From Candidatus Nitrosopumilus sp. SW (GTDB lineage: Archaea; Thermoproteota; Nitrososphaeria; Nitrososphaerales; Nitrosopumilaceae), in the NCBI RefSeq assembly GCF_006740685.1, contig NZ_CP035425.1, forward strand, positions 287,687-351,686: DNA of 64,000 nucleotides. The letters are read 5' to 3'. The notes under the pieces were generated by a model. The model saw only the letters and a list, made by a program, of their open reading frames with translations. It did no database searches and was not told the DNA's origin. Made by a program: the position numbers and the translations under genes. Positions 19,864-28,669 of the stretch are shown here, piece after piece. Position 1 is the stretch's first letter, and every line of letters starts with the position of its first letter.

Positions 19864-21171
19864 TTATTTCTTTTTTCTAAAGATTTCGTCGTTCTCTTGT
19901 AATGCATCAGTGTAAGAATCCATATCCAACATGAATTCTTCTTCATCAGAGTACGCAGACTCAGCATGTTCACTGATGTCCAGACCGACATCTTCAACTT
20001 CAGGACTAACCCTAATTCCAATAAGATGTTTGATTATCTGCATTAAAATCCATGTTCCACCGAATCCTATTGCGGCTGCAACAGCTACACCTACGGCTTG
20101 AATCCATAATTGATCAGGATTGCCAAACAACAGTCCGTCAACACCACCAGGATTAATCATAGTACTTGCAAAGATACCAATTGCAAGAGATCCTACAATA
20201 CCGGCAACGCCGTGAACAGAGCTGACATCAAGTGCATCATCAATGTGTAATTTTTCTTTGAATAACACCACACCAGAGTAAGAGATTACACCTATTGCAA
20301 TTCCTATAACAAATGCGTGTTCAGCACTGACAAATCCAGAGGCAGGAGTGATACCAGCAAGACCAGCAATTGCACCATTAATTGTAGCAACTACAGATGG
20401 TTTTCCTGTTCTTACCCATGAAAGACCTGCCCAAATTAAAGCAGAAACAGAAGAAGCCATATGAGTTACAATTACAGTGTTACCTGCAACACCACCTGAT
20501 GCTGCAAGGGCACTACCTGCGTTAAATCCAAACCATCCAAGCCATAGCAAAGATGAACCAAGAACTGCAAGTGGAATACTGTGAGGAATCATTATGGCAG
20601 GACCGTAATTTCTTCTCTTTCCCAATACCAGTGCAGCAGCTAAAGCAGCCATACCAACACTAGTGTGAATTACAATACCACCAGCAAAGTCTACAACACC
20701 TAGTTGGGCTAACCAACCGCCACCCCATACCCAGTGGACAAGAGGGTAGTAAATCAACATAGACCATGCAGATATGAATACAATAAATGAACTAAACTTC
20801 ATTCTTTCAGCAATTGTTCCTGTAAGAAGCAATGGAGTGATACATGCAAACATCAATTGGAACTTTACAAATAATACACCAGGAATAGTTGGAGCAAATG
20901 GCAGTGCATCATCAGAAGGTACACCCTTTAGGAAAACCCAGTGCATATCTCCTATTAATCCATGTTCTGAAGGGCTAAATGATAAACTAAATCCAAATAC
21001 AAACCACATGACACTCAAAAGTGCCAATCCGAAAAAGATCTGCATGAAAATTGAAGCTGCATTTTTCTTTCTTAATAAACCAGATTCAAAAAGACCCAGT
21101 GCAGGGATCATAAGCAATACAAGACTTCCAGCTACAAGCATCCACGCTGTATCTCCAGAATCAAGTACCAT
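19864..21171 (-). CDS. amt: Ammonium transporter (Amt)
   Basis: The 435-residue protein has eleven predicted membrane helices and imports ammonium, the energy and nitrogen source if this is an ammonia oxidiser. Family features seen are the FGFSLSFSPSEHGLIGD loop, the first pore His in GGIVIHTSVGMAAL, the phenylalanine/tryptophan gate region, and the second pore His in DVSSVHGVAGIVGS. The acidic C-terminal tail (SYTDALQENDEIFRKKK) is where PII proteins act in other Amt proteins. It is divergent from glnK across 117 bp, and a perfect inverted repeat lies between the two promoters. Confidence 0.96.
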   Translation of the reverse strand: MVLDSGDTAWMLVAGSLVLLMIPALGLFESGLLRKKNAASIFMQIFFGLALLSVMWFVFGFSLSFSPSEHGLIGDMHWVFLKGVPSDDALPFAPTIPGVLFVKFQLMFACITPLLLTGTIAERMKFSSFIVFISAWSMLIYYPLVHWVWGGGWLAQLGVVDFAGGIVIHTSVGMAALAAALVLGKRRNYGPAIMIPHSIPLAVLGSSLLWLGWFGFNAGSALAASGGVAGNTVIVTHMASSVSALIWAGLSWVRTGKPSVVATINGAIAGLAGITPASGFVSAEHAFVIGIAIGVISYSGVVLFKEKLHIDDALDVSSVHGVAGIVGSLAIGIFASTMINPGGVDGLLFGNPDQLWIQAVGVAVAAAIGFGGTWILMQIIKHLIGIRVSPEVEDVGLDISEHAESAYSDEEEFMLDMDSYTDALQENDEIFRKKK

Positions 21172-21221
21172 TAGAAAAAAAAATTAGTTTTTAATTAATA
21201 ACAATATCCTAATTTGATTGT

Positions 21222-21238
21222 CAAATGATAATCATTTG
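21222..21238. promoter_or_regulatory. Palindromic candidate operator between amt and glnK
   Basis: CAAATGAT (21222-21229) and ATCATTTG (21231-21238) form a perfect 8-bp inverted repeat with a 1-nt spacer. It lies upstream of the glnK TATA box and also upstream of the likely amt TATA region (21186-21200), so one dimeric factor bound here could control both divergent genes. Confidence 0.5.
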
Positions 21239-21255
21239 GTATACAAAATCAGAAA

Positions 21256-21288: not shown

Positions 21289-21618
21289 ATGCTCAAAATA
21301 GAAGCTATTCTTGGCGAAAATGACGTCATGGCAATAAGTGAAGCACTAAAGAATATTGGAATAGGAGGTCTTACTGTCACAAAGGTAAGAGGCAGAGGAA
21401 AAAGACCAGGTCCTGAAATTCACGCATCAAAAGGAAGTGAGATTTTTGTACCCCAATTCAATGACAAATATTTCATCGAAGCCATCATACCAGATTCAAA
21501 AGAAGATGAGGTAGTAAACATCATCAAAGAAAATGGTAGAGTAGGTAAAATTTTTGTCTCACAAGTATTGCGTGCAGTAGATATCGCAACAGGTGAAGAG
21601 GGCGAATCCACAATCTAA
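21289..21618 (+). CDS. glnK: Nitrogen regulatory protein P-II (GlnK)
   Basis: The 109-residue trimeric PII protein senses ATP/ADP and 2-oxoglutarate and normally plugs Amt. It shows the family blocks LKIEAILGENDVMAISEAL, GGLTVTKVRGRG, and the B-loop/C-terminal GRVGKIFVSQVLRAVDIATGE. The T-loop (about residues 37-55) reads KRPGPEIHASKGSEIFVPQ and lacks the Tyr at the classical uridylylation position, so control by uridylylation is unlikely. It is divergent from amt, the standard genetic partner, and is followed by two micro ORFs. Confidence 0.95.
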   Translation: MLKIEAILGENDVMAISEALKNIGIGGLTVTKVRGRGKRPGPEIHASKGSEIFVPQFNDKYFIEAIIPDSKEDEVVNIIKENGRVGKIFVSQVLRAVDIATGEEGESTI

Positions 21619-21629
21619 TGTGATTTTGC

Positions 21630-21758
21630 ATGGATGTTCGTAAAAGCAAATTATTCAAAAGAGAAAAGATGCAGCCAATCAAGCCTAAAGACTATCCAAA
21701 GGTAGTTGCAATCATTGGAATAATTGTTATACCACCGATATTATTATTCTTCATATGA
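21630..21758 (+). CDS. Micro membrane protein downstream of glnK (42 aa)
   Basis: This 42-residue ORF has a basic N-terminal half (MDVRKSKLFKREKMQPIKPK) and one C-terminal hydrophobic helix (VVAIIGIIVIPPILLFFI), as expected for a membrane micro-protein with its basic end inside. It begins 11 bp after the glnK stop, and its TGA overlaps the ATG of a second micro ORF (ATGA), which argues that both are translated from the glnK transcript. Family unknown. Confidence 0.55.
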   Translation: MDVRKSKLFKREKMQPIKPKDYPKVVAIIGIIVIPPILLFFI

Positions 21759-21853
21759 ACACATCTAAGAAAATATCCATTGCAAAAGTGATAATGGCTG
21801 CAGTAGGTCTAACTTTAGTGGGGTTGTGGTTGTTTTCAGAGTATATTTTTTAA
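21755..21853 (+). CDS. Micro membrane protein (32 aa), coupled to preceding ORF
   Basis: The 32-residue ORF starts in an ATGA overlap with the previous micro ORF and encodes a basic start (MNTSKKISIAK) and a single hydrophobic helix (VIMAAVGLTLVGLWLF). Its last four bases overlap the convergent PII-like gene. The coupling and membrane character suggest a small partner for the transporter or for the other micro-protein; this is inference. Confidence 0.5.
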   Translation: MNTSKKISIAKVIMAAVGLTLVGLWLFSEYIF

Positions 21854-22431
21854 AAATCACCAAAATTGTTTTCATAAACAATTGTAGGATTCTTTAATTG
21901 TTTTTCCAATGTTGGAAGGTATTTCATAATACAGTGATTTACAAAATCACTAAATGATTTTATTCTGTAATCAGTTCGAAGAGTGTCTTTGTTTTCTTCA
22001 TAAATTACTTGGAGTTTATGTAAGGTGAATTTTTGTAATGGAACAAATCTACTGCGTTTTGGTAATGTTATGGGTTCTGGTTTTTCATCTAAAACAAGTT
22101 CAAGATCTTGTGTAGCATCGTTTGTTTCCATGTCTACAACTTCTTCCATTTCAGAGACAAAGATTTTTCCTCCATGATTTGCAGTTAATCCAGAATTTTT
22201 TGAAATCATCTCAACTACTCGTCTTGCATCTTTGTCAGGTACCACCATTTCGATTTTTGCAAGAGGAATTGATTTGAGACCAGTAGAACCTACACGAGAT
22301 CCTTTTGACTCATCATAGATGTTGTTATCTTCTAAGTTTCGTTTATCAATAATGTATGTGCCAACTAGATGTAAGTGGCTTTTGATAGTAGGAAAATTCT
22401 TTCTTTTGATTACAGCCTCTATCTTTTTCAT
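21850..22431 (-). CDS. Divergent PII-like protein with extra C-terminal domain
   Basis: Residues 1-112 of this 193-residue protein follow the PII pattern: MKKIEAVIKRKNFPTIKSHL at the start, IPLAKIEMVVPDKDARRVVE in the middle and GGKIFVSEMEEVVDMET at the end, the last closely matching the PII C-terminal signature. The T-loop region is replaced by a different sequence (IYDESKGSRVGSTGLKS), and residues 113-193 form an additional helical domain (FTLHKLQVIYEENKD, SFSDFVNHCIMKYLPTLEKQL) absent from normal PII proteins. It is 420 bp from glnK and probably senses a nucleotide or metabolite, but with a different target. Its promoter has an inverted repeat around the TATA box. Confidence 0.75.
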   Translation of the reverse strand: MKKIEAVIKRKNFPTIKSHLHLVGTYIIDKRNLEDNNIYDESKGSRVGSTGLKSIPLAKIEMVVPDKDARRVVEMISKNSGLTANHGGKIFVSEMEEVVDMETNDATQDLELVLDEKPEPITLPKRSRFVPLQKFTLHKLQVIYEENKDTLRTDYRIKSFSDFVNHCIMKYLPTLEKQLKNPTIVYENNFGDF

Positions 22432-22450
22432 AAATAATTTTCAAAAAAAG

Positions 22451-22472
22451 GGCCTATTTATGAGATTAGGCC
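22451..22472 (-). promoter_or_regulatory. TATA box of the PII-like gene enclosed in an inverted repeat
   Basis: GGCCTA (22451-22456) and TAGGCC (22467-22472) flank a 10-bp segment that on the minus strand reads ATCTCATAAA, containing the presumed TATA box about 27 bp before the ATG at 22431. A protein bound to the repeat would block TBP, so repression is the simplest reading. Confidence 0.5.
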
Positions 22473-22603
22473 ATTATCACACCCAATAGTAGATCGTGTT
22501 CAAATCATATTTGATGAGGTAGTGGTTTAGGCATTCAATAAAGGTGTAAAAAAATCAGCTAGAATGATCAACAAAGCTCAAGTTAAAGACTAATAAAGTA
22601 ATG

Positions 22604-22620
22604 TACCGTACCATACGGTA
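22604..22620 (+). promoter_or_regulatory. Inverted repeat at the start codon of the winged-helix gene
   Basis: TACCGTA and TACGGTA form a perfect 7-bp inverted repeat with a 3-nt spacer, ending on the first base of the start codon. A TATA-like TAATAAAGTA lies at 22591-22600, so the repeat covers the predicted transcription start. Autorepression by the encoded regulator is plausible. Confidence 0.5.
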
Positions 22621-22985
22621 TGATGCGAGCAAGACTAACATATGTGCCACTAGAAGTGGCAGAACAATTCGAAGATTTCATAATCAAAAGAGACGAAGAA
22701 ATCATGGGAGCAGTAAAAGCAAGAACCAGAGATTATAGTACTTTATCTTTGTTGAAATTATTGTACCAATTAAGAGGAAGTCCAATGACATTTTCTGAAT
22801 TGTATTCAAAATCAAAGATCAGAATGAAAAAATCATTCTTGAACTATCTTCACCTATGTGTGGATTACAATTTTGTCAAAAAAGAGGCAGTTGGATCAAA
22901 CATGATCTATACAATTACAGACAAAGGACATACAATGCTGAGTCTCTTTATGCAAAAAAATAACTGGATGCCAAATTTAGGATAA
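22620..22985 (+). CDS. Winged-helix-like transcriptional regulator
   Basis: The 121-residue protein has an N-terminal helical segment and, from about residue 40, a likely winged-helix: LSLLKLLYQLRGSPMTFSELYSKSKIRMKKSFLNYLHLCV followed by the wing VKKEAVGSNMIYTITDKG. This order (helix, helix-turn-helix, wing) is typical of small archaeal regulators. The ATG is at 22620, directly after a palindrome, and the mRNA is probably leaderless. It is divergent from the PII-like gene across 188 bp, so it may control that gene, itself, or both. Its end overlaps the convergent secreted-protein gene by 9 bp. Confidence 0.7.
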   Translation: MMRARLTYVPLEVAEQFEDFIIKRDEEIMGAVKARTRDYSTLSLLKLLYQLRGSPMTFSELYSKSKIRMKKSFLNYLHLCVDYNFVKKEAVGSNMIYTITDKGHTMLSLFMQKNNWMPNLG

Positions 22986-28225: not shown

Positions 28226-28669
28226 ATGTCAGTTGATGTAAACAGTAACTCATTCAAAGAAGACATGATTGCAGAGATCAAAAGAATTCAAAGTGAGTTA
28301 ACTGAATTAAAAAACCTCAAAAACAATATCTCAAAGAATTCACCTACAAGAAAACCAGCTAAAAAGACAACAAAGAGAAAGACAGTTCCAAAGAAAAAGA
28401 CAGTGAAGAGAAAACCAGCTAAAAAGACAACAAAGAGAAAGACAGTTCCAAAGAAAAAGACAGTGAAGAGAAAACCAGCTAAAAAGACAACAAAGAGAAA
28501 GACAGTTCCAAAGAAAAAGACAGTGAAGAGAAAACCAGCTAAAAAGACAACAAAGAGAAAGACAGTTCCAAAGAAAAAGACAGTGAAGAGAAAACCAGCT
28601 AAAAAGACAACAAAGAGAAAGACTACAAGAAAAACATCCAAATCAAAAAGAAAATCTAGGCAAAGATAG
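28226..28669 (+). CDS. Lys-rich repeat protein, histone H1-tail-like
   Basis: The 147-residue protein has a short N-terminal helix (residues 8-40, EDMIAEIKRIQSELTELKN) likely to form a coiled coil. The rest is almost wholly Lys, Arg, Thr, Pro and Val in 20-residue repeats of the type KPAKKTTKRKTVPKKKTVKR, ending in KSKRKSRQR. Composition matches the C-terminal tails of histone H1 and of bacterial H1-like proteins, so non-specific DNA compaction or RNA binding is likely. The DNA repeat unit is a perfect 60 bp, present four times plus partial copies. It is followed 56 bp later by elp3. Confidence 0.75.
   Translation: MSVDVNSNSFKEDMIAEIKRIQSELTELKNLKNNISKNSPTRKPAKKTTKRKTVPKKKTVKRKPAKKTTKRKTVPKKKTVKRKPAKKTTKRKTVPKKKTVKRKPAKKTTKRKTVPKKKTVKRKPAKKTTKRKTTRKTSKSKRKSRQR
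28348..28635 (+). repeat. Perfect 60-bp tandem repeats within the Lys-rich gene
   Basis: Four copies at 28381-28440, 28441-28500, 28501-28560 and 28561-28620 are identical base for base; a partial copy of 33 bp precedes them and a short partial copy follows. Lack of any synonymous change points to recent expansion or ongoing homogenisation, so copy number probably varies between strains. Confidence 0.95.

Follow-up and report, generated by a model that had tools for sequence, protein, structure and literature searches.

NikR, the nickel regulator, pairs a ribbon-helix-helix (RHH) domain with a ferredoxin-like ACT domain. The nitrogen genes of methanogens, glnK and amt included, are regulated by the nitrogen repressor NrpR, a winged-helix protein. 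For a haloarchaeon, a novel mechanism of nitrogen control over glnK-amtB transcription has been inferred (PMC3831643). Here we describe a gene in which a PII domain is fused to a predicted RHH domain, a good candidate for a regulator of ammonium-uptake genes in ammonia-oxidising archaea. We found no published PII-RHH protein in the open-access literature; as most subscription papers lay outside this search, the priority of such a protein is not certain.

The gene lies in a window of 64,000 nucleotides, the whole stretch of DNA that was analysed, from a genome that is a single 1.5-Mb contig and whose nearest relatives are titled Nitrosopumilus or Marine Group I. The first-pass annotation had proposed a divergent PII-like protein beside glnK, and this was borne out by the open reading frame (ORF), the Pfam P-II match, the alignment to GlnK structures and synteny. 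The features of the locus are as follows.

19864..21171, minus strand: amt, ammonium transporter of 'type A', retained along with the fusion (Pfam Ammonium_transp, E 2.7e-114; synteny; distribution)
21215..21245, no strand assigned: candidate operator, three TGATNATCA-type boxes with an 11-bp period (TGATTGTCA, TGATAATCA, TGGTATACA; the third degenerate here) (conservation)
21289..21618, plus strand: glnK, 109 aa, adjacent to the fusion gene and convergent with it (Pfam P-II, E 2.7e-16; synteny)
21850..22431, minus strand: PII-RHH fusion gene, 193 aa, with a predicted RHH part (ORF; Pfam P-II, E 2.9e-10; orthologues in 81 genomes; monophyletic clade, 98/94)
22117..22431, minus strand: PII domain, residues 1-105, in which the T-loop motif and the ATP/2-oxoglutarate residues (Q39, K58, R101, R103, GxGD) are lost (Pfam, GlnK structures, model, Foldseek, residue mapping)
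22063..22116, minus strand: variable linker, residues 106-123 (low model confidence; 11-41% identity to relatives)
21907..22062, minus strand: predicted ribbon-helix-helix DNA-binding domain, residues 124-175 (model; PDB matches; standalone relatives; identities)
21853..21906, minus strand: C-terminal tail, residues 176-193, kept only in closer relatives (low model confidence; identities)
22455..22462, minus strand: putative TATA box of the fusion gene (CATAAATA), kept in most close relatives
22471..22479, minus strand: lone, weak operator-like box (TGATAATGG) that precedes the fusion gene's TATA box; its counterpart in relatives reads TGATAATGA or TGATAATCA
22620-22985, plus strand: HTH gene, flanking the fusion gene on the side opposite glnK

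The amt and glnK genes are divergently oriented, and the fusion gene is located between glnK and the HTH gene. Within the host's own family, synteny showed that the fusion gene nearly always adjoins glnK and amt and stands tail-to-tail with glnK. In family f2 (genus g22) its neighbours are amt and a second PII gene, and in genus g2 it lies beside a different PII gene, with amt located elsewhere. Two tiny plus-strand ORFs lie between glnK and the fusion gene (21630-21758, 42 aa; 21755-21853, 32 aa); each contains a hydrophobic stretch and is matched in about 45 related loci. Further along the window, positions 28226-28669 of the plus strand hold a lysine-rich ORF of 147 aa built of KPAKKTTKRKTVPKKKTVKR repeats.

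Across our sample of the class, the fusion was found in 81 genomes, 75 from the host's own family and six from another family of the same order. A phylogeny placed the PII domains of the fusion proteins in one clade (support 98/94), with some long branches flagged. In genome G110 the amt-adjacent fusion gene is broken up into two ORFs, one for the PII part and one for the predicted RHH part (L120, 415-792 and 794-991), and the same genome has a second, divergent copy of the fusion (L121).

By sequence and predicted fold, the fusion protein is a member of the PII superfamily. Its match to Pfam P-II (PF00543) scores 40.8 bits against a cut-off of 25, with the strongest stretch at residues 44-103 (E 2.9e-10), and its first 105 residues align to solved GlnK proteins, best to 3ncp (E 1.3e-7). 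The AlphaFold model has the ferredoxin-like beta-alpha-beta-beta-alpha-beta order of PII proteins, at high confidence except in the T-loop, and the top Foldseek matches of this model are all PII/GlnK structures (E 1.6e-7). The PII fold that had been proposed for residues 1-112 is thus upheld by model and Foldseek, but it ends near residue 105. The T-loop had been described as replaced; its sequence motif is indeed gone, but its length is about canonical.

Comparison of seven fusion proteins (E. coli numbering) indicated that Q39, K58, Y51, R101, R103, G37, R38 and the B-loop GxGD are lost, one distant member retaining R at 103, and that K90, F92 and E62 are mostly retained. The uridylylation site Tyr51 is absent, with T, F, S, G or P in its place among the proteins compared. 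Given that the ligand residues are replaced, we do not class the fusion protein as a canonical GlnB/GlnK, and classical binding of ATP and 2-oxoglutarate by its PII half is, judged from these residues, probably lost. The host genome encodes five PII homologues. R101 and R103 are also absent from the other four, the phosphate-binding arginines of the E. coli type being missing in all PII proteins of this genome (window glnK, L001, L002, L004), and its amt-linked GlnK has a shortened B-loop.

The first-pass annotation had further described an added helical domain of 80 residues and called it novel. An extra C-terminal region is present and conserved in about 80 genomes, but its folded part comprises only residues 124-175 or so, after a variable linker. 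Among the relatives compared, residues 124-175 are strongly conserved, the linker is not, and the domain equals or, more usually, exceeds the PII half in conservation; in family f2 the putative DNA-binding half is 65% identical as against 38% for the PII half, and it is the former that is better kept in distant relatives. When modelled alone, the domain has a helical core with pLDDT 94-97, and this monomer model shows no formed strand. We compared this model with 350,542 PDB chains using Foldseek (E up to 10) and obtained 18 matches, many of them chains of the same proteins. RHH or TCP proteins account for 16 of these, including plasmid ParB (3no7), the ParD2 antitoxin and TCP domains (5zkt and entries beginning 7vp), every one with E >1. 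The TCP domain folds as an RHH (PMC10049435).

The sequence of the domain is in keeping with this class of matches. Helix B, SFSDFVNHCIMKYL, fits the pattern S-x-S-E/D-x-I-R/N-x-A/C-I-x-x-Y-L of RHH_1 proteins from the same order, and the combination of a V-x-L strand with this helix parallels those proteins; related small standalone ORFs start with TVTL/SITV-type strands. The domain had no match in Pfam, PHROGs or a PDB sequence search, and a profile search gave no named RHH family above its cut-off. One standalone relative produced a sub-threshold match to RHH_5 (E 0.04), and when hhalign was used to align the domain with the RHH_1 matches of related genomes, the probability was 9-12%. Because the Foldseek E-values exceed 1 and the chains are redundant, the RHH assignment rests on the class of the matches together with the sequence pattern; from these, the C-terminal domain is likely an RHH DNA-binding domain. 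The description as novel holds in that no library names the domain, but its model is RHH-like and its relatives are widespread in the order.

Relatives of the domain occur as standalone ORFs of 57-70 aa, and also at the N-terminus of a family of about 130 aa across many genomes of the order. This widespread family (L165, 60-446, and others) has no name and joins an RHH-like N-terminus (MPKxGFKSITI...) to a second, cysteine-containing part. A 57-aa relative is found at L123, a 70-aa relative in genome G271 (L122, 6109-6321, minus strand) stands beside portal-like and capsid-like phage genes, and a 60-aa relative (L233, 3001-3183) lies on a viral contig that also carries an integrase-like gene. 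The relatives near phage-type genes (L122, L233) are possibly viral regulators. In viral contigs, the domain alignment A2 and one standalone query gave no standalone copies; wider queries returned the 60-aa relative at L233 along with a single member of the family of about 130 aa (L234).

In the divergent amt-glnK promoter, TGATNATCA palindromes recur at an exact spacing of 11 bp. The first-pass annotation had overlooked these boxes, which provide the module with a concrete candidate function. They span 31 bp in the window, where they lie just upstream of both putative TATA boxes. Among genomes with the fusion, a perfect palindrome is present upstream of 47 of 54 glnK loci and 50 of 53 amt loci (some genomes counted twice); 2.9% of random 150-mers from the same loci contain one. 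We compared 42 distinct intergenic sequences, excluding four g2 loci with a different glnK, and the central box was found in all 42 with an invariant TG..CA; conservation extends to the outer half-sites of the boxes on either side. As a stand-alone motif, AAATGATNATCATTT showed no overall enrichment within the window, and its meaning derives from position and conservation. In genome G245, 11 exact consecutive copies of TTTGATAATCA with an 11-bp period lie upstream of amt (L314, 1339-1459), either an expansion of the operator or an assembly effect.

Many fusion genes carry a box of their own: at 22 of 61 loci (some genomes twice), a copy with no more than one mismatch directly precedes the TATA box. 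In many genes it sits about 47 bp before the start of the fusion; the copy in the window is degenerate (TGATAATGG). We considered a regulon extending further across the host genome and rejected it, since the three weaker single boxes that we inspected there all lie inside ORFs. At the fusion promoter, the first-pass annotation had singled out a GGCCTA/TAGGCC repeat. The repeat exists in the host genome (22451-22456 and 22467-22472), but it is absent from all relatives checked, even at 97% identity. Being found in no relative, it does not count as functional for the family, and we rejected the inverted repeat (22451..22472) as an operator.

Fusion and operator are inherited together at the ammonium-transporter promoter of ammonia-oxidising archaea. 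When up to one mismatch is allowed, TGATNATCANNTGATNATCA is found in 60 of the 81 fusion genomes and, among the roughly 220 genomes that do not have the fusion, in 21, as against two genomes for a reversed control pattern; these counts share ancestry and are not phylogenetically independent, so that the independent contrasts are few (g8, G193 and f3). The other 21 fusion genomes have no tandem match at one mismatch. The tandem sites inspected in two genomes that do not have the fusion (G299, G172), and extra sites in two that do (G011, G085), lie inside ORFs and are therefore probably due to chance. Type-A amt genes have a perfect palindrome at 50 of 53 loci in fusion genomes versus 1 of 35 homologous amt loci without the fusion, and amt genes of the second type have none at 34 loci, with or without the fusion in the genome. 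The palindrome is present at amt even though amt lies far from the fusion in G003, G028 and G136, and the type-A amt found without the fusion in genus g8 and family f3 has no operator. Clear contrasts within the family are provided by g8 and by genome G193. G140, without the fusion, has kept one palindrome, and G082, with the fusion, has only one, which is displaced.

Boxes of this type were also seen at other genes. In genome G136, an additional PII gene that is unlinked to both fusion and amt is preceded by a perfect tandem operator (L373, 1690-1709). Tandem boxes precede a gene for a KefB-like cation antiporter in G149, G116, G214, G031 and G148 (L370, L371, L374, L375, L389), all with the fusion; single palindromes precede it in G125 and G130, without the fusion, and the host genome has no such boxes there.

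The fusion had been grouped with the neighbouring regulator into a nitrogen or energy sensing module. The link to nitrogen stands, but membership of the HTH gene is not supported. This gene is near-universal in the family, is often located elsewhere and also occurs in genomes that have neither fusion nor operator; in f2 genomes, G066 among them, it was not found. Given this distribution, independent of fusion and operator, the HTH protein is unlikely to be what binds the boxes.

We consider a one-component PII-RHH transcription regulator of ammonium uptake to be the best explanation of the locus and, from its sequence and models, a probable one. What the data show is the PII match in sequence and fold, a conserved added domain, synteny, an operator and its joint occurrence with the fusion; we infer an RHH fold, binding of the operator by the fusion protein and a signal, arranged as follows. 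An N-terminal PII-type sensor would be joined by a flexible linker to a C-terminal RHH DNA-binding domain. The RHH domains would dimerise and bind the 11-bp-spaced TGATNATCA array between the divergent amt and glnK promoters; the weaker single box at the regulator's own promoter would also be bound, and its own transcription probably adjusted. The PII domain would sense nitrogen or energy status, either by contacting GlnK or by binding some ligand that is not the classical ATP/2-oxoglutarate, and would thereby alter DNA binding. As the boxes lie upstream of both putative TATA boxes, repression and activation are both allowed. The conserved amt-glnK-fusion cluster (synteny) counts in favour of a PII-RHH regulator, and the different symmetries of RHH dimers and PII trimers count against it. 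A hexamer would suit the combination of three boxes with a trimeric PII; we tentatively suggest, as a possibility on the doubtful side, that two PII trimers are joined by three RHH dimers on three palindromes, passing nitrogen status to the promoter without a separate transcription factor.

Expression of the low-affinity transporter Amt1 is reported to be depressed under ammonia starvation (PMC7490402). Type-A amt is missing in many genomes and the second type is near-universal; because of this distribution, type-A amt should be the low-affinity Amt1 of that study.

An alternative is that the fusion protein is a PII protein whose helical C-terminal domain serves protein contacts, with GlnK, Amt or an enzyme, and that the operator is bound by another regulator lost in the same lineages. 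PII proteins classically work via protein contacts, and the fusion occupies the same neighbourhood in most genomes, where gain or loss of the whole cluster could couple unrelated parts. We nevertheless regard this account as unlikely: nearly all matches of the domain model are RHH or TCP DNA-binding proteins, the operator accompanies amt also at loci that are not linked to the fusion, the HTH regulator next door is distributed without regard to the operator, and in g8 and f3 type-A amt without the fusion is also without the operator.

The clear PII fold and the amt neighbourhood would equally suit an ordinary ATP/2-oxoglutarate-sensing PII paralogue that gates Amt like GlnK, its extension being lineage-specific and of no regulatory importance. 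This is very improbable, given that the family no longer has the T-loop motif, Q39, K58, R101, R103 or the residues of the B-loop, that the extension is conserved at least as well as the PII half in the relatives compared, and that glnK is already adjacent. We give slightly less credence still to an RHH domain that binds DNA but controls only its own promoter or another target, with the amt-glnK boxes belonging to a separate system. The box near the TATA box of the fusion, at just over a third of the loci scored, speaks for such autoregulation, but at amt-glnK the box occurs in several copies and shows much stronger conservation, and its sequence is common to both sites.

The one-component PII-RHH regulator would, if true, extend PII proteins from protein-contact signalling to direct DNA binding, and ammonia-oxidising archaea gain from it a candidate regulator, together with an operator of defined extent, 31 bp, and a candidate regulon of few genes. 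The fusion shares with GlnK/GlnB (PF00543) the PII fold, the MKKIEA start, the GGKIF motif and a gene beside amt and glnK; unlike them, it lacks the ligand residues and the T-loop motif, has a C-terminal domain and is predicted to act on DNA and not on proteins alone. With the CopG/Arc/MetJ-type RHH proteins, plasmid ParB (3no7) and ParD2 it has in common a putative strand-helix-helix pattern, the small size of the domain and the repeated palindromic boxes, whereas its helix A is longer, it has no significant sequence match to named RHH families and a PII domain is attached. NrpR is unrelated to the fusion, and its operator is different. NikR joins an RHH domain to a ferredoxin-like sensor in a one-component regulator, as the fusion is predicted to do; in the fusion this sensor is a PII domain, is N-terminal and is expected to form a trimer, in contrast to the tetrameric core of NikR.
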